Assembly: GCF_042453785.1 (NCBI RefSeq)
Contig: NC_091673.1
Coordinates: 2,797,501 to 2,861,500, forward strand
Direction: 5' to 3'
DNA from: Malus domestica
Taxonomy: Eukaryota; Streptophyta; Magnoliopsida; Rosales; Rosaceae
DNA length: 64,000 bases
The position numbers and the translations under genes are program-made. Below are positions 1,531 to 63,639 of this stretch, one piece after another. Within the stretch, counting starts at the first letter, position 1. Each line of letters opens with the position of its first letter. Below the pieces are notes generated by a model. The model saw only the letters and a program-made list of their open reading frames with translations, was not told where the DNA came from and did no database searches.

Positions 1531-6758
<5,228 letters not shown>

Positions 6759-43905: not shown

Positions 43906-44137
43906 TAAGAGAGAAACTTTTGTGAAACACTGAGATTTCATCGCGGTATCCTAAACAAAAAATGCAAGCCAAACAAAAAAAGTTAAAATTTGTATCTAAA
44001 GTTTTTTATTTTTTTTTTGGGTAAACTGAGGAATCCATTCCAGTGCCAAGAGACCAAAACTAAACCCCAAAAGCTTACACAGAAGCAAACAAATAAACAA
44101 CCACTAACACAATGCAGAAGGGTTCAACAAGAAGGAC

Positions 44138-44145
44138 GTTGCAGC
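44138..44145. repeat. hAT target-site duplication, left copy
   Basis: GTTGCAGC, identical to 50817-50824. An 8-bp duplication is the hallmark of hAT insertion. Confidence 0.9.
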
Positions 44146-44160
44146 CACAGTAGAAAATAT

Positions 44161-44194
44161 CGATAATATCGGCGAAATATCGCCGATATTATCG
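44161..44194. repeat. Perfect hairpin at the hAT left end
   Basis: A 15-bp perfect inverted repeat (CGATAATATCGGCGA and its complement) around a 4-nt AATA loop, starting 16 bp inside the element. More ATATCGCGATAT palindromes follow to 44310. It may serve transposase binding or form a cruciform. Confidence 0.85.
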
Positions 44195-44799
44195 TTTTTT
44201 GGGGACCCCGATATTTTAGTAACTATCCAACTAGTTTTCGGCATAATATCGCGATATTATCGATAATATCGATAATATCGCGATATTTTCGAAACTATCG
44301 CGATATTTGGTATGGACACGTCGGAGAACACGGCCGGAGCAAATAATCCGAAACCCTAAATCCCCAAATGCTAATTTCCAGCCTAATGAACTGAATCTAC
44401 AATACATGATTCCGACAAGAACGATTTCATTACAAAAATCAACATGTTTACAAGCCGAGAAGAACGATTTGAGTACAAAAATCAAAGCAAATGAACCGAT
44501 CCCTAAATCCCCAAATTCGGATTCAAAGCAACTGAATTGAATCCCTAATTCCTAAATCCCTAAAATCTATTTCAGTACAAAAATCAAGCAACATGCAGAT
44601 AAATCGCAATCTGTACAAAAATAGAACCCTAATTCCTAAATCCCTAAAATCAATTTCAGTACAACAAAGGTGTGCAACATGCAGAAAAATTGAAATCTTT
44701 ACAAAAATTTAAAGTAATACAGGGGAAGAAGAGAAGTAGGAGCCTGGAACATCGTCTTCCTCACGAATCCAAGACGGCTGGGACAAGTTCGTGGTCCTC

Positions 44800-44960
44800 A
44801 GTGGTGTCGACGGCTTGGACTACGGAGACAGAGGGAGACAGGGAGACACGGAGACACGGACGGTTAAGGAGTGGTGTCGACGGCTGGGTTTAGGGCGGGT
44901 GAGATGGGAGGAGCAGAGGGAGACAGGGAGACACGGAGACACGGAGACACGGACGAGGAC
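44800..44960. repeat. GA-rich duplicated segment in hAT leader
   Basis: The phrases 'agtggtgtcgacggct' and 'gggagacacggagacacgga' each occur twice about 70-110 bp apart, showing a small tandem duplication, with further 8-bp GAGACACG repeats. Low-complexity GA DNA continues to 45240. Confidence 0.6.
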
Positions 44961-45566
44961 TGAGAACTTCTCGGTGATGATGTCTCTGTGTGTGTGTGTG
45001 GAAGAAGTGGAGAAGGGGGAAGGGAGGGAGAAGACTGAGAACTTCTCGGTGAGAGCGAAGGCTCAGACCGACCTCAGAGAGAGAAGAGAGAAGAGAGAGA
45101 CTGAGAGGATTCGAGAGAGACTGAGAGGAGAGAGACTGAGAGGATTCGAGAGAGACTGAGAGGATTCGGGAATAGGGTAGTACGTGTGTGGTGTGCGTGT
45201 GTGGTGTGGTGGGGGGGGTCTCGAAGTGTGTGTGTGGTGGAGTGTGTGAGTTATTCAGTCTTTTTGACTGTCTGAGTGATGGCATGTTAGAAAAAAAAGC
45301 ATCCAATGCTCCAAATTATTGAAAACCAAATCATTCCAAACCTATGTCTACCTCTCTGATACAATGATCCAAAGAACTTTTTGCAATTTCAGAACATGCA
45401 CAACAAATACTACTGCTTTAATAATGAAAGCGTGTGACAGTCTTTCATATGCAAAACAGTGTCAATGTCTTTCACATGTAAAACAGTGTCAATGTCTGTT
45501 ATATACTTACATTCTTTCATCATCAGAGGCATTCACCGAATTTTAACTTACATTCTTCTTCCCATA

Positions 45567-46144
45567 CCATTTTCAAAACCATTCCAGATCCTTTCCAACG
45601 CCAAGCAACACAAAGGCTTCCATATTTAAGGTCAGTTTACAAACTTAAATTTATATTATTGTAATTTATACAAAAACAAATAAATTTGTGTGCACTCGTA
45701 TGTTAATTTTTTTAAGTAATTACTTGCATGTTAATTATGTTAATTTTTGTAAGTAATTAAGTAATGTTAATATTAATTGTTTTAAGTAATTAAATAATGT
45801 TGTATAATTATTCCCTAGGATAATTTTAATGTTATTTATTATTTTATTTTCCTTACCATTTTCAAAGTCATTCCAGATCCATTCCAAAGCTTGAACACAA
45901 AGGCTTCAATATTTAAGGTAAGTTTACAAACTTAAATTTATATTATTGTAATTTATACAACAACAAATAAATTTGTGTGGACTCGTATGTGAATCTTTTT
46001 AAGTAATTAATACTTGCATGTTAATTTTTGTAAGTAATTAAGTAATGTTAATATTAATTGTTTTAAGTAATTAAGTAATGTTGTATAATTATTCCCTAGG
46101 ATAATTTTAATATGTTTAATATTATTTATTATTTTATTTCCCTT
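45567..46144. repeat. Tandem duplication of about 288 bp in hAT leader
   Basis: Two copies start with ACCATTTTCAAA (45567 and 45855), and a third start (ACCATCTTCA) lies at 46145. Both carry the same order of blocks: 'cattccagatcc', 'aaaggcttc', 'tttacaaacttaaattta', 'aattattccctaggataatttt'. The copies differ by scattered substitutions and small gaps. Confidence 0.75.
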
Positions 46145-46149
46145 ACCAT

Positions 46150-46320
46150 CTTCATTATCAAATTGGATTATTATTCATTAATATTAGGTTTTTTTATTAT
46201 CAAATTGGATTATTATTCTTTAATATTAGATTTTTTTATTATCAAATTGGATTATTATTCTTTTATATTAGGTTTTTTTATTATCAAATTGGATTATTAT
46301 TCTTTTATATTAGGATAATT
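46150..46320. repeat. 42-bp tandem repeat, about four units
   Basis: TATCAAATTGGATTATTATT recurs at 46156, 46198, 46240 and 46282, an exact 42-bp period, separated by 'aatattaggtttttt'-type spacers. Confidence 0.85.
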
Positions 46321-47060
46321 TTTTTATCAAATTGGTGGATTATTCATTAAATTGGATTATTATCAAATTGGATTATTATTCATCACCATGTTTTATATTA
46401 GGATAATTTTTTTATCAAATTGGTGGATTATTCATTAAATTGGATTATTATCAAATTGGATTATTATTCATCACCATGTTTTAATTTAGGATAATTTTTT
46501 TATCAAATTGGTGGATTATTCATTAAATTGGATTATTATCAAATTGGATTATTATTCATCACCATGTTTTATATTAGGATAAATTTTTTATCAAATTGGT
46601 GGATTATTCATTAAATTGGATTATTATCAAATTGGATTATTATTATCAAATTGGATTATTATTCATCACCATGTTTTAATTTAGGATAATTTTTTTATCA
46701 AATTGGTGGATTATTCATTAAATTGGATTATTATCAAATTGGATTATTATTCATCACCATGTTTTATATTAGGATAAATTTTTTATCAAATTGGTGGATT
46801 ATTCATTAAATTGGATTATTATCAAATTGGATTATTATTATCAAATTGGATTATGATTCATCACCATGTTTTAATTTAGGATAATTTTTTTATCAAATTG
46901 GTGGATTATTCATTAAATTGGATTATTATCAAATTGGATTATTATTATCAAATTGGATTATTATTCATCACCATGTTTTATATTAGGATTTTTTTTTATC
47001 AAATTGGATTATTATTCATTAAATTGAATTATTATCAAATTGGATTATTATTCATTAATA
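46321..47060. repeat. 88-bp minisatellite with 107-bp variants
   Basis: The marker TATCAAATTGGTGGATTATT occurs at 46325, 46413, 46501, 46589, 46696, 46784 and 46891. Spacings are 88, 88, 88, 107, 88, 107. The long units hold one extra 19-bp subunit (ATTATCAAATTGGATTATT type). The array ends just upstream of the transposase start. It shares the core word ATCAAATTGGATT with the preceding 42-bp array. Confidence 0.9.
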
Positions 47061-47230
47061 TTAGGTTTTATTATTCCATATTATTTGTATAATTACTTAA
47101 CTTTTTACAATCATTTTCTTTACTTTGTATTTAATTCTTCTGTAGAATAACTTTATTATTTAGGTTCTCTTATTTTTATCAAAAAATAATTGTCTAATTT
47201 TAATGAAAAATAAATATAGGTACGTTTAAG

Positions 47231-50200
47231 ATGTCAAGTAAACGTGATCCAGCTTGGGAACATGGGGACCCAATAGACGGAAACAAACATGGCACAATTT
47301 GCAAATATTGTGGTCGGGTAATGAAGAGTGGCGGAGTGACACGACTGAAGTATCATCTTAGTGGATTAGATCCATCAAAAAATGTCCAACGATGCGATAA
47401 TGTCCCCCCAGAAGTGAAGGCATTCATCAGCACATTATTAAAAAATAAAAAACAGCAGAAGGAAAAGATGACACAAGGAATGGAAAATATTCGAGCTGGG
47501 CTACGGGGAGAAGTCTATGGCCAAGCGGTTGACAGTGATGAGGATGACGATGAGGACGAATGTGATGATGACATGGGACCTGAAGAACGACGCAGTTTGA
47601 AACAAGCATTACGTGCCTCCAAACAGTCAGCATGGGAAAGAGAACACCTTCATAAAATTCCTAATAGGGGACAAGGTTCCGGGACAAGTGGTGGTGCACA
47701 AATGAGACGGGGAGGCAGTCTTAGAGAATCACAACCAACACCACCAATAGCCCCAAGTTTATATAAGTCATCCAACGCACGTCAAAAGAGTGTTTGGAGT
47801 TATTTCAAGGGAGGTAATGTGAAGGAGGGAATGGGGCGTCTAATTAGCAAGTTCTTTATCTATGAAAATGTCCCTGCTGCGAAGGCTTCATCACATCATT
47901 TCAAAAATATGGTAGTGGGATGTCAACAGGCCGGTGTTGGAGTACAACCTCCCACTCCCTATGAGATAAGAAACAAATATTTGGATATGGAGTATAAAGA
48001 CATTGGCGAGTATGTTAACAAGTTGAGGTCAAAGTGGGAAACTAATGGTTGCACAATCATGTGTGACGGATGGACCGGCCCGACCAGATTATCTATCATC
48101 AACTTCATGGTATACTCCAAGGGCAAGACAATTTTTCTGAAGTCTGTTGATGCTTCAGACCATATAAAGAATTACAAGTATATTTACAAATTATTGAGGG
48201 ATGTAATCATGGAGGTGGGAGAGCATAATGTTGTCCAAGTCGTGACCGACAACGGTTCTGCATTTGTCAAAGCTGGAAAAAAGTTAATGAAGCATCATAA
48301 TGTGTTTTGGACATCATGTGCAGCACATTGTATTGATCTTATGTTTGAGGCAATGGGAAAGAGAGAGAATGTTGCTACTGTGGTCAAAAGAGCTAGAACG
48401 ATCACTAATTATATTTACAATCACGGTTGGTTGTTGGCAAAGATGCGTGAATTTTGCAGAGGAGAAATTATTCGTCCAGCTACCACTCGATTCGCCACCA
48501 ACTATATTGCATTAAACAGCCTACTCAAGAAGAAAGCAGGGTTGAAGCAACTATTCACTAGTGACGATTGGGCCAACCACAATTTCAGCCGCTCAAATAC
48601 AGGTCGTATGGTGGAAAGTATAGTGCTTGATCATGCTTTTTGGAGTCAAACAGAACATGTGTGTCAAGTGTTTGAACCTCTTTACAAAGTTTTACGGATC
48701 GTTGACACAGAAGTGTATCCTACTATGGGGGCTGTATATGAATTGATGCGTGTAGTGAAGGATGAATTGGAAAGAAAACATGGTGCAAGGTGGGTCGTAA
48801 AAATAATTGAAGACCGATGGTATAAAACATTATACCACGATTTGCATGCAGCAGGTATAAATTATGTCATAATTTGCAATTCATTTCTTTAGTTGCATAA
48901 GTATTATTTATCTTATTAGAGTATGTGTTTCTTTGAACAGCATATTATTTGAATCCCCGATACCAATACAGACCCGGTGTTGGAGATGATGGTAACCTTA
49001 TACGTGCTGTACATAATGTATACAATAAATTAGACCCTGCATCACCAGCAGTTGGCCAATTTGGAAATGAGGTACACAATTACTTAAATTATAATAATTA
49101 CTTTGTTGGATTAAACTAACACAATTTATTGTATTCAGCTAACATGGTTTAAAGATGCAAGAAGAACATTTGGAGAACCAACATCAGTTGCTGCTCGAAC
49201 AAATATGTCTCCTAGTGAGTATAAACATATTTCACTATAAGTTTATAATAGAATTTGTTGGAGTTATTAGGCTTATCAACATTATTTTTCATTGTAGCTG
49301 AATGGTGGATCATGTATGGGACCGATGCACCAACTGTGAGAAAGTTAGCAATAAAAGTATTATCACAAACGGCTTCCTCATCTGCTTGTGAAAGAAATTG
49401 GAGCACATTTGCACTCATCCACACAAAGCAAAGAAATAAGTTGGCTCATAGTAGCTTGGAAAAATTAGTTTATTGCTACTACAACATGAAGCTTCAAATT
49501 CGAGATAAGGAAGCAGAAATCGATCATGTCGACCGTGGTGACCCACTAGATGTGTTTGATATTGTTGGTGAAGATGATGATACGGAGGGTAACCAACTTT
49601 TTCAATGGATTAGACCTCTTCATTTAGATGATGATGAAGGCAACCCAGCTCCCAGAGTTGCTGAAGAAGCACGTAATGAAGGGATAAATGTAGAAAGAGT
49701 ATTAGAGGAGGAGGTGGGATCTAGCAGCACTGACTCTTTCGAAGAACTTTTGCAGCCAAGACCAAGCAACACTGGAATTCCACCTTTTTCCAATCCTACA
49801 CAACCACAACATCGTGCTGATACTAATGATAGCTCTAGTACAAGATCAGGAGACTCACCTACCACCGGAGGTGGGAATGATGAAGGACATAGTGGAGCTG
49901 GAGGTAGTGGAGCTGGAGGTAGTGGTGGTGGATATGGAAACTATTATGGACCACCACCTCCCGGATATATGAGCCCCTTCACTGGTGAGGCAAACTTCAC
50001 GCATGCAACCCAGGATGATGACCATGGCAGTAGGCGGGCAGGACCAGGAATTGGTGCCATAGGGAAGGACTATACTCGCAGAGAAAGAGGCAAAAAGATT
50101 TTGTCAAGTCAAGAAGATGACTCGTTATCTAGAACTTCAGACTCTGTTGGATTGGGAAGTAGTAACTATGGTTATCCTTATAACCAACCATTTCCCTACC

Positions 50201-50457
50201 CTTCATATCCCATTCCTGTTGGGATGGAATCGAGCGACTCATGGAATCAATCCCAGCCTCAATCTTCAAATGATTTTTCTTATGGACAACCTCAACCAAT
50301 CTCGGATCCATATGGGTGGCATATTAACAATTACATGCAAAACTATTTTGGGGATTTATCATTTGATAACTACTCTTCACAATACACTCATTCTACACAT
50401 AGAGATGATGAAGATAGTGACAAATTTGAACCTCATAGGAACTCTATGTGGTTCTAA
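47231..50457 (+). CDS. hAT transposase, BED finger + DUF659 + hATC, 996 aa
   Basis: Exons 47231-48854, 48941-49071, 49139-49214 and 49298-50457, all GT-AG, phases matching, 996 aa. The N-terminal BED-type zinc finger covers about residues 8-60 (AWEHGDPIDGNKHGTICKYC, then RLKYHLSG and RC). A linker with an acidic run (DEDDDEDECDDD) follows. The RNase H-like core with DUF659 features contains CDGWTGPTRLSIINFM (D279), VVTDNGSAFVKAG (D340) and FWTSCAAHCIDLMFEAMGK. The hAT C-terminal region reads TASSSACERNWSTFALIHTK (E642) and KLAHSSLEKLVYCYYNMKLQ. The three acidic residues expected for cut-and-paste catalysis are present. After residue 685 comes an unusual 310-aa tail: acidic, then Gly/Ser-rich (GAGGSGAGGSGGGYG), then Tyr/Pro/Gln/Ser-rich, with a basic RRERGKK patch. 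The start ATG follows the minisatellite leader. Confidence 0.92.
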
Positions 50458-50724
50458 AGTGTAAAATATTGTACTAATTCATTATATATAAATGATTATG
50501 GTGTGTTTAGACTTCTTTCATTAATTACTACATATTTTCTACACTCATAATGTTTGTCAGATCGCTATATAATCAACTTGATAATGTTAAATCCATCATG
50601 CAATGCATTTCCTTCCAATTTTTTGTGATAAACTAATAGATAATTGACTAAATAAACATCCTACAAAGTTTCAATAAAAATTTCCAAGTTTTTCTTACAA
50701 TTTCCGTGGTTTCCATGTAATTTT

Positions 50725-50808
50725 TATCGATATCGATATTTTACCGATATTTCCATCGATATTTCCGTGTTTTCGGACTACCGATATTTCCGATATCACC
50801 GATATTTT
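50725..50808. promoter_or_regulatory. Right subterminal ATATCG-rich repeats of the hAT element
   Basis: About eight CGATATTT/CCGATATT words lie in the last 90 bp of the element, mirroring the left subterminal region. In the hAT elements studied (Ac, Tol2) such short repeats bind transposase; here that is inferred. Confidence 0.7.
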
Positions 50809-50816
50809 CTTCCTTG

Positions 50817-50824
50817 GTTGCAGC
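50817..50824. repeat. hAT target-site duplication, right copy
   Basis: GTTGCAGC, matching 44138-44145 base for base. Confidence 0.9.
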
Positions 50825-52953
50825 AAAGCGAAGGCGTCGCCCTCTACACTGCCAAAAGGAGAAACTAATGAGAACAGGGTAAGCCATCATTGTTTAAGAC
50901 AAAAATCAACTAAGATGGAGGTCGATTGACCCAAACAACATTACACATCTCCAAATTACAAAATAACGCAAAAGAATCCACTGCCATATTGACCAAGTTT
51001 GAGTTGTCATATTAGTACTTAAAGCGTAGGCAAGGCATTCTCCACTGTAGGGAAAGAGTAGACAGTAGTGTTTAGATCTCTTTGCATTAAAACAGAGATC
51101 CCTACGACGCTGCGTCGAATTAATCACCCATTATTATATGAAAATGTTAAAACGCATAACCGTGCGCGAGATAACGACACAATTTCACGTCTTCTCTTTG
51201 GGTAAAAAAGTTTCTGTCCTCTCTTTCTCTTACCTCTCTCAGTCTCTCAATCCATCTATCTCTATAGACTGTATACAATTATTATTTACTAGTAGGACTG
51301 TAAGTCCTGCAGCTGCAATATACGTACGAATCATGGGGAAGGGTGTCAGCGCGCGAAAAATGATGGATGCGAAAATCAGATTATTTTGTAGATGAGGCCA
51401 AAAATAGAACGAGATCCTCTCACGATCTTTTTATGTGGATCCTAGGTATTCTTTGTTCGTATTCGTTTATAGTATATCGTTTGATCAGAATTATTATAAT
51501 TTTTTTATTTAAAATTTAATATAAACAGTATTTGACAAAAATTGATGCACGATATATGATAAACGGACAGGGAATGATCCTCATTCCCAAAAATATAAGA
51601 GTAGTATAACATTAAAATAATTTAATCATTAATCAATTCCTAATTATTTTTTTAATTATTAAGGGGTTGCTTGCTTGAAAGGAATGGCAAGACAAGCAGC
51701 AGTTGTGGTTTTAGCCGTAGAAGTGTGTGGCAGACTCAGCAGGAACACCAGAAGCCTCTCTTGTCCTGTATTTCTTGTTGTAAATATATTAGGGGTGTAA
51801 GTAGATTAACACATATTTGCGTTTTTGGATTTGCATTACATTTATTGTGCGTCCCAAAGCCGAAAAGAATATGACGCATTTCATACGGCAATCGTACGCT
51901 TTGATGGCGTGTCCCTTTCACTCTTTCTGCCGCTGGTTTTTCGTCTTTTCTGTGTTTTTCTCTCTTGATGCTCTCTGCTCGCTCTGTGGTACCGGTTGGT
52001 GATTCAATGTGTGTGCCCCTCACGTGACCTAAGGGATCTATGGATGATACGGAAAACTGCTTCTCTAAGAGCAATTCCATCCATAGAGCCCTTTCCCCTG
52101 GCAATCCACTATTCAATCCACCATATTAAACAGTAACTGCCTTAAATGAATAGTAACTACCATTAATGAACAATAATTAACATTTACATCTCCACCCTTG
52201 GAACCCTCCCCCTGACAATAAGCAATTAAAATAATAGTTTTTTTTGTTTGTTTAAATAATAAAAAACCCTCTCTCTCTGACACAAAAAAAATAAAAAATT
52301 GCAAAGCCCTCGGGCCACAAGCCCGTCGACTCCCCACCCCCCTTCGCTCGGGCTCCCACCCTCAGTCGGACCCTTCCCCGCTGGAGCTGCTCCCACCGGC
52401 CCTCAGGCCCTTTCTCCTCCCCTGTCACCCGAGCAACCAGCATCCGCTGGAGTTGCTCTAAGAATCACTTGTAATCATAAGTGTTTTTTTTTTATCAAAG
52501 TACTTATTCTGTGTTTTGATTTTTCAGATACAAAGATAAATATTTTAGATAAAAGACATGCAATCTTTGATTGCATGTAACAAATGCAAATCAAAGTGTT
52601 ATCTTTCCATGAATTGATAATTCAAAAGTTACATACAATCAAGACATCAAAACAAAAAAGCCAAGTTATGAACAAAAACAAGTGATACCTCCAACGGGTA
52701 CATCCGGTTAACGGAAGTAACAAATCCATCAGAAGAAGAACCTTTGAGAGCCTGAGAGCAAGGAAAAACGGAGTTGCTTCCTCAGTCTCATTGTTCTCTT
52801 CTCAACTCTAATCCAACGACGTGAACGTATATATGGTCATAGCTCTGCCTAACCAATTAACTTCAAACAAAATTTTCTACCTATCACATTTTCCCTCTTT
52901 TGTGAGTGACAAAGATCCTATAACAGTGTACATGTTTTATCGCAGGTAACTTT
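50825..52953. other. Spacer between hAT element and choline-transporter-like gene
   Basis: 2.1 kb with no gene recognised; open frames are short and unrelated to known families. A PIF/Harbinger-like MITE lies at 52069-52458. The final 200-400 bp should contain the 3' UTR of the minus-strand gene. Confidence 0.5.
52069..52458. mobile_element. PIF/Harbinger-like MITE (TAA target duplication)
   Basis: 390 bp. Left end GAGCAATTCCATCC; right end reverse-complemented GAGCAACTCCAGC, an inverted repeat with few mismatches. TAA flanks both ends (52066-52068 and 52459-52461). The right third is GC-rich (52310-52450), unlike the AT-rich left. There is no coding capacity. Confidence 0.65.
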
Positions 52954-59989: not shown

Positions 59990-61530
59990 TCATTTGATGT
60001 AACCATTCTTGAGCTGTTCGATGCAAGTTGCGTTGTCTTCAAAAATTGTCGTCGGGGCATTAACAGCGGGATGAAGATCACATGAGCTTCGAATATGGCC
60101 CATTACTGCTCTCAACCAAAAACATTCCCAAGTTGCTTCATGTAAGGCGAGAATTTCAGCATGGTTAGACGAAGTGGCAACTAAGGTCTGTTTAGTTGAC
60201 CTCCAAGATATTGCGGTGCCTCCAACGGTAAAGACATAACCCGTTTGAGAACGCGCCTTGTGCAGATCAGATAAGTATCCAGCGTCGGCATAACTAACAA
60301 GGCGAGAATCAACCCGATGAGCATAGGGTGCGGCATCACTCGAGGATTCATAGGGATAGAATAAGCCCAAATCCGTAGTACCCTTAAGGTAACGGAAGAT
60401 GTCTTTCACGCCAGTCCAATGTCTGCGTGTTGGTGCATTGTTGTATCTTGCCAAAAGATTAACAGCGAAGGAGATGTCGGGTCTAATGCATTGAGCTAAG
60501 TACAATAAAGCGCCTATCGCACTTAGATAAGGAACTTCAGGCTCCAAAATCTCTTCATCATCCTCCTTCGGATGGAAGGGATCTCGCTTTGCATCTAGCG
60601 TACGAACGACCATAGGAGTACTCGAATACTTCGCTTTATCCTCATTAAAACGGCGCAACACCTTCTGGGTGTAGTTCGATTAATGTACTAAGATTCCATC
60701 CGAACAATGCTCTATCTCGAGACCGAGACAGTATCGAGTCTTTCCTAGATCTTTCATCTCAAATTCCGACTTCAGGTGCGAAACAGTTCTCGCGAGCTCT
60801 TCAGGAGTTCCGATGAGATTCATGTCATCGACATATATTGCAACAATCGCAAATCCGGAATGTGACTTCTTAATGAACACACAAGGGCATAGTTCGTTGT
60901 TCACATATCCCTGACTAGTCAAATACTCACTCAGACGGTTATACCACATTCTTCCGGATTGTTTCAAACCGTATAGTGAACGCCTCAGCCGAATTGAGAA
61001 CGTGTTCCGGGGTTTGGAAATATTTGAACCAGTCAATGTAAGTCCTTCGGGAACTTTCATATAAATTTTCGTAGCAAGATCCCTATAGAGATACGCGGTT
61101 ACTACGTCCATCAGCTGCATATCCAGTTTTTCGGAAACTACCAAACTGATAAGGTATCGAAAAGTAATCACATCCATAACGGGTGAGTAAGTTTCGTCAT
61201 AGTCAATCCCGGGGCGTTGTGAGAAACCTTGTGCTACAAGACGAGCTTTGTAACGCACAATTTCGTTCTTCTCATTACGCTTCCGAACGAAAACCCACTT
61301 GTAGCCAACGGGCTTCACATGTGGAGGAGTAGGAACTACAGGTCCAAACACCTTACGTTTTGCAAGTGAATCAAGTTCGACTTGGATTGCTTGTTTCCAG
61401 TTTGACCAATCAGCTCTACGTCGACATTCATCAACGGAACGCGGTTCAATGTCATTGCTCAACATGATCTCAATAGCTACTGTAAATGCTAATGCATCAT
61501 CGACAATCATCTCATTTCTACGCCACACAT
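59990..61530 (-). mobile_element. Copia reverse transcriptase and RNase H region (part of fossil element)
   Basis: Reverse transcriptase words such as YKARLVAQGF, YDETYSPV and the YVDDMN active-site box, followed by copia RNase H words (YLKGTTDLGLFYP, SYADAGYLSD, ATWECFWLRA). Part of the element above. Confidence 0.85.
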
Positions 61531-63390
61531 CATCTAACTAGCATAATAGACCGAAATCTCACGATTATCGGGAGGAGGATTCGTCTCTTCAAGGACGCTT
61601 CCATAATCTAGAATTTCCTCATGAGTTGGGTAAAATGAGTAAGCGATAGTCAGATTCACGGTAGGCTCTTCAGGACCTTGTGCCGTGGTTTTTCTCTTCC
61701 GGGGGTGTGAATCCTTTGAACCAAGGGGTCTACCACGCTTTTGTGTAGGGGCAGATGATTGGCTAGCCGCTAATGTACGTGGATCACCAGAATTGGCGTC
61801 CCGGGCTTTCAGAAGGGTAGTCTGTCGTACATTTGGTACATCTATCTTTGCAGGCGTATTCGCAGCTGGAATATGTGATCTTGTCACGCGCGCTAGATCG
61901 ATGAAAGCATCTGGCATGCTCTGAGCTATGCTCTGGAGATCTAATATGCGCTGCACTTCAGCTTCAGACTGAGCGGTGCGGGGATCTAAATGAGACAAAG
62001 TGGGAGTCGTCCACGATAATTCGCGTCGTTCATTCGGAACGTTGACGTTCTTATCTCCCCTTAACGGCGGGAAGATTATCTCATAGAAGTGACAATCCGC
62101 GAAACGAGTGGTAAACAGATCGCATGTCAAAGGTTCTAAGTAACGAATAATCGAAGGAGAATCATATCCGACATAGATTCCCATCCTTCGCTGAGGCCCC
62201 ATTTTTGTACGTAAGGGCGGCGAAATTGGCACATAGACCGCACAACAAAAAACGCGCAGATGCGATATGTATGGTTCGCATCCGGTGACCAACTGAAGGG
62301 CACTAAATGGTTGTGTCGCAACAGGCCTCAGGCGGACCAACTTTGCTGCGTGCAATATTGCATGGCCCCAAGCAGCGATCGGGAGCTTGGTACGTATGAC
62401 CAATGATCGAGCAATCATTTGTAAACGCTTAATGAAAGCCTCTGCCAGGCCATTCTGGGTGTGAACATGGGGTACATGATGTTCAACTTCAACCCCAACC
62501 GACATGCAATAGTCATCAAAAGTTTTAGATGTGAATTCTCCAGCATTATCCAATCGAATAGATTTGATCGGATAATCAGGGTGGTGAGCCCTGAGCTTGA
62601 TAACCTGAGCCAACAGTTTGGAGAATGCAGCGTTCCTTGTGGACAAGAAGCACACGTGTGACCAACGTGTAGAAGCGTCAACCAAAACCATAAAATATCT
62701 AAATAGTCCACAGGGAGGTTGAATCGGTCCACAAATGTCCCCCTGAATCCGTTGTAGAAAAATGGGAGGATTCGAACGAATCTTGTCATAAGAAGGCTTA
62801 GTAATAAACTTTCCCATAAAACATGTTTGACATAAGATTTCATGGATCGAACCTAAGCTTCGGGTTAGTGGATGCCCGTGTGAAGTTTTGAGGATACGGC
62901 GCATCGCTATTCGTCCAGGATGTCCCAAACGATCATGCCAAAGTGTAATTTCGTGCGCGGTCCCTGTGGTAGGGCCGGCCACATAGTGGCATTCGATGGG
63001 GCGTATGGTCGTAGTATACAGACCACTCGGATTACGCTCCATCTTCTCTAGAATACACTTCTGGCCATATTCGTAGGAAGTTACACACAAAAATTCAACT
63101 CCATTTTCTACGTGGGTTTCAGCGTGGTAATTGTTATCTCTAATGTCCTTGAAACTTAGTAACGTTCTTCCGGAACGTGGAGAATAGAGTGCCTCAGCAA
63201 TGGTCAAGATTGTACCATTGGACAACATTATACGTGCCTTACCGTATCCTTCTATCAGGTTGGATGGGCCTGAGAGGGTTGTCAGAGGTGCATTCTTAGG
63301 TACGAAGTTAGTGAAATAGATGCGTTCACGCAAAACAGTATGCGTGGTTGCACTATCTGCCAGACAACTAACTTTCCCACTAGTCATACC
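61530..63390 (-). mobile_element. Copia protease and integrase region (part of fossil element)
   Basis: Aspartic-protease-like start (ADSATTHTV), the integrase zinc-binding region (WHDRLGHPGRIAMRRI), the integrase core (GDICGPIQPPCG, RLDNAGEF, HTQNGLAEAFIKRL) and a long variable C-terminal part up to the reverse transcriptase. Confidence 0.85.
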
Positions 63391-63639
63391 TAGAATGAAA
63401 AATTAATTTGAATTGGTCACATGCATAAAAGTTTATAAAAACAAGTATCAATTCAAAATAATTTCATTTATTCAAGGATTAAAACTGAATATCCAAAATA
63501 AATCGCCAACTAACAATCCAAAACATGAAGGAAAATTGTTCAAAATCAACCAAAAAACAAGGTGGGGTGCGGCAACTATGTGGAATTCGGCCCCAATTGT
63601 CTTATTTCAACTAAAAAAAAGTCTATGTCTAAGATTCTA

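Follow-up and report, generated by a model that had tools for sequence, protein, structure and literature searches.

A full-length hAT transposon in the apple genome and its young family, in which diverged left arms and one transposase module appear to have recombined

A stretch of 64,000 nt of the Malus domestica genome (contig NC_091673.1, 2,797,501-2,861,500; within-genome label C13:2797501-2861500), here called the window, contains an element that the initial annotation had described as a structurally complete, recent and possibly autonomous hAT transposon. The element proper comprises 6,671 bp (44146-50816; plain coordinates refer to the window) and lies between two exact GTTGCAGC octamers. 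It is very probably a full-length hAT cut-and-paste transposon of the autonomous type, belonging to a young family in which left arms and coding part have recombined. The earlier description is supported at the sequence level by many near-identical copies with duplications of their own, by purifying selection and by a paralogous empty site.

The span first given for the element, 44138-50824, is correct when the duplications are included. The octamers at 44138-44145 and 50817-50824 are identical as annotated, and recomputation of the terminal repeats returned the same score of 22 matches in 27 positions; among 2,000,000 pairs of positions drawn at random from the window, one reached this score. 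The terminal inverted repeats of hAT elements are short, start with CA and have a G at position 5. Those of the window element begin with CACAG and CAAGG, and the ends of the closed family copies agree at 19-23 of 27 positions; one closed copy (L025) has an A at position 5 of its left end. The ATATCG-rich subterminal DNA noted earlier on both sides was found again, with 11 ATATCG/CGATAT motifs in the first 200 bp, eight in the last 100 bp and none in the 6,371 bp between. The following features were annotated:

44138..44145, no strand: left target-site duplication GTTGCAGC, an exact match to the right copy, with a single copy at the equivalent place in the paralogous host repeat L039
44146..44172, plus strand: left terminal inverted repeat of arm type A, CACAGTAGAAAATATCG..., matching the right end at 22/27 and present at 19 genomic places
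44146..44345, plus strand: left subterminal region with 11 ATATCG/CGATAT motifs by motif counts, proposed as transposase binding sites
44304..45551, plus strand: arm-specific segment, strongly diverged from arms B1 and B2/C, putative promoter region
45552..46145, plus strand: 5′ leader region, internally duplicated (unit of about 300 bp at 88%), with 80-89% matches between arms and a putative leader exon/intron
46146..47054, plus strand: AT-rich tandem array, variable among copies, with related repeats upstream of the ATG in other arms as well
47231..48854, plus strand: transposase exon 1 with the BED finger (amino acids 6-43), DUF659 (amino acids 241-391), D279 (48065-48067) and D340 (48248-48250)
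48941..49071, plus strand: transposase exon 2, from the predicted frame
49139..49214, plus strand: transposase exon 3 with the start of the hAT dimerisation domain (amino acids 606-674)
49298..50457, plus strand: transposase exon 4 with E642 in CERNW (49390-49392), the end of the dimerisation domain and, from 49498, a low-complexity tail (amino acids 678-996)
50617..50816, plus strand: right subterminal region and right terminal repeat, with eight ATATCG/CGATAT motifs in the last 100 bp, almost invariant across the family by genome matches
50817..50824, no strand: right target-site duplication GTTGCAGC, an exact match to the left copy

Within the leader region, AAG|GT donor-like sites are located at 45630/45631 and 45917/45918, and the AT-rich array probably sits in a 5′ leader intron ending at the AG at 47218-47219.

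The annotated four-exon frame of 996 amino acids, with BED finger, both catalytic aspartates and the glutamate of CERNW, agrees with the splice sites and the Pfam domains. It has a single terminal stop, and its three introns (86, 67 and 83 bp) are of the GT-AG type. The Pfam cut-offs were passed by zf-BED, DUF659 (E 2e-52) and the hAT dimerisation domain PF05699 (E 4.1e-14). The D/D/E catalytic positions are D279, D340 and E642, in the same order as in Hermes, an insect element. With the first 725 amino acids as query, Hermes (PDB 6dww and others) was matched by phmmer with an E value of 2.7e-6 via the dimerisation stretch, including the CERNW glutamate; the two aspartate stretches aligned in order, weakly and without significance on their own. 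The tail (amino acids 678-996; 49498-50457) is rich in Gly, Tyr, Pro and Ser.

The genome search by element ends that had been suggested as a check retrieved the family. In 651 Mb on 19 contigs, matches were located on C1-C17, and all counts of ends and exon-1 places are lower bounds. The last 20 bp of the right end occur exactly at at least 81 places and the left end of the window type (type A) at at least 19, of which 17 are identical and two have an A at position 6; the reversed controls gave no place in either case. For the 208-bp right end, a first look gave 1,362 candidates; identity is 99-100% at all 40 places that were scored, window included. Exon 1 was scored at at least 80 places, window included, with 95-100% amino acid identity (from 763 candidates). 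A lone or ancient element is ruled out by the numerous near-identical copies elsewhere in the genome.

A degenerate left-end pattern was found without mismatch at 57 places, comprising 19 type A, 31 type B, four type C and three other left ends. Right ends could be paired with 18 of the 19 type A ends, all at 6.4-7.1 kb (the nineteenth is unpaired), and with all four type C ends at 6.5-7.0 kb. For type B, 25 of 31 were paired, 14 at 1.3-2.1 kb, eight at 6.1-8.2 kb and three at 15-21 kb; none of the three other ends had a partner. When up to one mismatch was allowed, the pattern was present at 487 places, including CATGG- and CAAGG- types, and the window family seems, from these ends, to be part of a wider clan of elements with ATATCG ends.

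Besides the window, 20 long copies were fetched as 10-kb stretches. These are the best exon-1 matches, a choice that flatters both intactness and the exon-1 ratio of nonsynonymous to synonymous differences (pN/pS). An exact 8-bp duplication at the same boundaries is present in 15 of the 20, and 12 of the 20 are open, with the ATG, all six splice dinucleotides and no early stop. The general remark in the initial annotation that most hAT copies are broken therefore fits this family poorly, at least in a sample chosen in this way. Together, the closed long and short copies and the window have 26 duplications, which are all different octamers and tend towards nTnnnnAn (T at position 2 in 18/26, A at position 7 in 16/26). 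By the features tested, the element is a member of the hAT superfamily; its target tendency is Ac-like and its transposase is of the DUF659 type.

One long copy, L022 (C17:10527261-10537260), has the same right flank octamer GTTGCAGC as the window copy in different flanking DNA, and its left-end match, 16 kb away, likewise aligns from the octamer's first base. About 2.6 kb before the transposase ATG of L022 lies the end of a 793-codon frame that by eye is similar to a Ty3-type polyprotein; from this frame a retrotransposon appears to be nested in this copy. Left and right ends or arms 15-21 kb apart were also seen in L028, L014 and at C3:18898574, C5:44292841 and C11:26749602. Upstream of exon 1, L028 has a frame that looks gag-like by eye; in L014 no frame of 150 codons was found.

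The left arms fall into three classes, namely A (window), B1 (L018) and B2/C (L019, L027, L021, L026, L017). Divergence between A and B is about 0.30 in the first 200 bp, 0.43-0.64 over 44346-45645 and 0.083 in the leader; it is 0.022 over the first 300 bp of exon 1 and 0.004-0.026 from there up to the right end. The profile of A against C is similar, and B and C differ by 0.11-0.15 over 44146-45645. Divergence is 0-1.5% in all group comparisons for two non-coding stretches further on, namely coding intron 1 and the final 359 bp. A blastn search with the arm-A segment 44304-45551 against the other arms revealed no match of at least 80 bp at E 1e-8. That the arms are wholly unrelated was dropped, since a sensitive search found about 62% identity over 470 bp between A and B1 (E 1e-19) and 63% between A and B2 (E 4e-13); the reversed controls gave E values of 0.02 (B1), 8.5 (B2) and 4e-7 (self). 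On these alignments the arm-specific segments are remote homologues. The strong divergence of the arms, set beside the near-identical coding part and right end, indicates that old left arms stand before a young coding part and a young right end. Among the 80 exon-1 places, 26 were assigned to arm A, 17 to B2/C and eight to B1. Within a class, arm identity goes down to 82% (A), 74% (B2/C) and 86% (B1), while exon 1 stays at 96-100% on the amino acid level.

Coding haplotypes were determined from 11 sites. Of 41 copies attempted, 40 could be typed (L062 gave no match; L015, L044 and L059 are partial), and four haplotypes (I-IV) are distributed over the arms. Arm A carries haplotype I in five copies, II in 12 and III in four; arms B1 and B2, pooled, carry I in three, II in two and IV in five; arm C carries IV in five and III in one. 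Haplotype III was also found in two copies with left end D (CAGTG) and in L022, whose arm is unassigned. The arm of L061, which has left end D, is 85% identical to arm A, so that D may be a diverged A. L052 and L060 have one deviating typed site each. Since the haplotypes cross the arm classes, arm and coding part have recombined. In an alignment of 21 genes, with L022 counted with arm A, fixed differences between the arm groups were found only at 47216, 47347 and 47353, and beyond these positions mostly variants common to both groups are seen.

The trees of the two parts disagree accordingly. For the right part (48540-50480; tree without L015 and L022), monophyly of arm A was rejected by the approximately unbiased (AU) test (p 5e-59), and no fewer than three arm changes are required by supported branches. 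In the left-part tree, built from 16 closed elements, the branch that separates A from B/C has full support, and monophyly of haplotype I was rejected by the AU test (p 1e-72). As judged from these sequences, one transposase/right-end module is joined to at least three old left arms, with at least three recombinations on the tree.

A left arm that is mostly non-coding and contains tandem repeats could simply evolve faster than a coding part that alone is constrained, with no recombination at all. This explanation is hardly credible here, because coding intron 1 and the final 359 bp, non-coding as well, are nearly invariant, the haplotypes cross the arm classes and both AU tests reject congruence; divergence merely through lack of constraint is likewise countered by the divergence profile. 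Arms and coding parts might also have been misjoined in the assembly, given that high-copy repeats are hard to assemble and that in L014 and L028 the arm is reached only across a large insert. Such an artefact is very improbable: L019 and L027 each lie between exact duplications of their own, and the combinations recur at several places.

At a finer level, each arm group has one constant haplotype. Arm-A copies with haplotype I are 96-100% identical to the window arm, those with II 90-95% and those with III 86-90%. B1 arms at 98-100% carry IV, B1-like arms at 84-85% (L014, L055) carry II, and B2 arms (L019, L027, L057) carry I. From this constancy, a few recombinants seem each to have founded a lineage. 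L019 (ACTACACG) and L027 (ATCACAAT) have in common a B2 arm at 99% identity and haplotype I, and are flanked by different exact duplications. The presence of the same type at two sites with different duplications shows that the recombinant type B2 plus haplotype I transposed after its formation.

The main rival is gene conversion in place, by which old elements would have kept their positions while a few source copies replaced the sequence of their transposase and right halves, with little recent transposition of recombinants. Homogeneity is indeed strongest at the coding part and right end, and arm identity falls within a class while exon 1 remains nearly constant, which is in its favour. It is nevertheless unlikely as the leading process: most fetched long copies have exact duplications, the B2 type of L019 and L027 has moved, the short copies described below were amplified with exact duplications, and a constant haplotype in finer arm groups suits founding recombinants better than ongoing overwriting. 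Conversion may act beside gap repair.

Smaller relatives with the same ends as the window element had been suggested as a possibility. Short copies do exist and their right end is common with the window; their left arm is of another type. In total, 14 short relatives with exact paired ends (1.3-2.1 kb, type B left ends) were detected, of which ten were fetched, all with exact 8-bp duplications. Six of them combine a left end of the L019 type with a stretch of the right end: L029, L030 and L034 keep about 1.0 kb on the left and 370 bp on the right, and L032, L036 and L038 about 1.1 kb and 432 bp, the latter three with a 5-bp overlap at the deletion junction as aligned to L019. In the remaining four (L031, L033, L035, L037; the 2.0-kb class), 493 bp of the left and about 362 bp of the right end are kept, and the interior of about 1.15 kb has no match to L018, L019 or the window. 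Right-end identity to the window is 99.7-100% in the first six short copies and 93-96% in the 2.0-kb class. From these alignments the short copies derive from arm B2 and not from the window's arm. An origin from the window arm type is ruled out, as 18 of the 19 A ends sit in full-length copies. An internal direct repeat of 225 bp was seen in L031, and stop-free stretches of 222-228 codons in the 2.0-kb class.

The transposase was further analyzed for selection. Within and between arm groups, pN/pS is 0.14-0.36 for amino acids 1-240 and 241-677 and 0.88-0.99 for the tail, in copies selected by exon-1 similarity, with L015 omitted and L022 counted with arm A. A repeat count with the window and 19 copies picked by their ends (20 rows) gave 0.32 over 217 codons. 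With transversions only and L015 omitted, the values are 0.13 (amino acids 1-240), 0.22 (241-677) and 0.88 (678-996). From the low values up to amino acid 677 and those near 0.9 in the tail, the parts for DNA binding and catalysis appear to have stayed functional while the family spread, and the tail appears not to be maintained in sequence. Introns diverge less than synonymous sites (0.4-0.7% versus 2.8-3.1%, about 4-7-fold; 48540-49440, 20 rows). Base composition, i.e., the AT-rich introns, or cytosine methylation may explain part of this gap.

The nearest fetched relative of the window copy is L009, with eight differences in 5,762 sites outside the tandem array. Under an assumed substitution rate of 5e-9 to 1.5e-8 per site and year, the two copies would have split about 45,000-140,000 years ago. 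Joined together, the two flanks of the element (window 44002-44145 and 50825-50994) correspond to a host repeat of about 310 bp, and nine other genomic places match through the joint at 80-90%. L039, L040 and L042, which were aligned, are all uninterrupted at the insertion site and without the element; L039 (90%) has exactly one GTTGCAGC, and L040 and L042 have a changed octamer. As these are host repeats, the empty site is paralogous and not orthologous. The host repeat starts with a T-run that, read on the opposite strand, resembles a retroposon A-tail.

Several observations weigh against a young, autonomous family with recombined arms. The majority letters of the arm groups differ at 47375, 47542, 48137, 50010 and 50095. 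Haplotype III on a B2/C arm is represented by one copy (L028) and haplotype II on B-type arms by two (L014, L055); the arms of L014 and L028 were assigned by same-orientation arm matches 16-17 kb from the right end and not by a closed duplication. The arms are partly clustered on the right-part tree (four changes; 22 of 500 shuffles were as low), and 29 of the 80 exon-1 places have no assigned arm. Five of the 20 long copies (L014, L015, L017, L022, L028) are unclosed within the fetched 10 kb, and the frame or a splice site is broken in eight, among them L019 with stops at codons 682 and 717 (L027 is open). Given broken copies such as L019, recombinants may have been moved in trans. The autonomy and activity of the element are possibilities read from its sequence, and the gap-repair step described below is a proposal. 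Finally, C-to-T changes per site amount to 0.13 at CG, 0.14 at CHG and 0.05 at CHH (L015 omitted). They are thus about 2.5 times commoner at CG/CHG than at CHH, as expected for methylated, silenced copies, and this excess suggests that family copies were methylated at some time.

The last point, together with the eight broken copies, bears on the possibility that the family was recently amplified and is now silenced, the window copy being intact through its youth and nothing moving today. Such a state comes close to being an even proposition without quite reaching it, as the closest pair differs at only eight of 5,762 sites and the catalytic part is constrained. It is compatible with the structural reading of a full-length element with recombined arms.

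For the recombined arms, the following mechanism is proposed. The transposase would bind the ATATCG-rich subterminal repeats and mobilise long and short copies alike; because one haplotype occurs with several arms, it would act on several of them. After excision, the gap would be filled with another family member as template; if the template is switched during this repair, close to the array or in early exon 1, a new left arm would be joined, which could be the main route of exchange. Unfinished copying of the same kind would leave internally deleted short copies. For the Anopheles P element, gap repair from ectopic sequence has been proposed as one source of short copies (PMC1562414).

A wider interpretation, put forward tentatively and considered doubtful, is that the family renews itself by swapping the whole left arm, i.e., end, promoter region and leader, while keeping one transposase and right end, in a LINE-1-like manner. 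If this were true, new arms would be joined at the AT-rich array of the presumed leader intron, and a change of arm would allow escape from promoter-directed silencing.

Two further observations were made in the window. At 59990-63402 on the minus strand, three adjoining frames resemble by eye a Ty1/copia polyprotein (integrase, reverse transcriptase). At 2323-3594 on the plus strand, a stop-free frame of 423 codons with long Arg/Asp/Glu/Ser repeats resembles by eye an RS-type splicing-related protein.

The literature consulted, in which few subscription papers were covered, contained no description of this hAT family nor of left-arm exchange in hAT elements. To our knowledge, the element is ordinary in kind, and the number of open full-length copies and the left-arm exchange are less usual. 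Apple harbors a hAT family that is young, high in copy number and rich in open transposase copies and, as the crop is propagated clonally, transposon activity can be sought in the form of differences between clones. The crossing of arms and haplotypes provides a natural set of recombinants with which changes of control region in DNA transposons can be studied.

Ac/Ds of maize and the Ac-like hAT group generate 8-bp duplications with nTnnnnAn, and the subterminal motif of Ac is AAACGG. The apple family resembles Ac/Ds in its nTnnnnAn-tending 8-bp duplications, short imperfect terminal repeats, motif-rich ends and internally deleted partners, but differs in its ATATCG motif, its DUF659-type transposase, several diverged left arms and numerous full-length copies. 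LINE-1 lineages have repeatedly acquired new 5′ untranslated regions. The outcome is alike, one enzyme module behind different 5′ control regions, whereas LINE-1 is a retrotransposon with another mechanism, so that this is a resemblance and not membership. With Hermes, which was compared by sequence, the apple transposase has in common the match in the dimerisation stretch and, weakly, the order of the aspartate stretches; Hermes differs as a chain of 612 residues. MarorhAT-10 of the fungus Marasmius oreades likewise combines DUF659 with a hAT dimerisation region and is accompanied by short non-autonomous families with similar ends; unlike the apple element, it is fungal and 3,396 bp long, and no arm exchange is described in the consulted parts of the paper (PMC9674265). 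New insertions of MarorhAT-10 were observed according to these parts, and they indicate that a transposase of the DUF659/hAT-dimerisation description can be active (PMC9674265).

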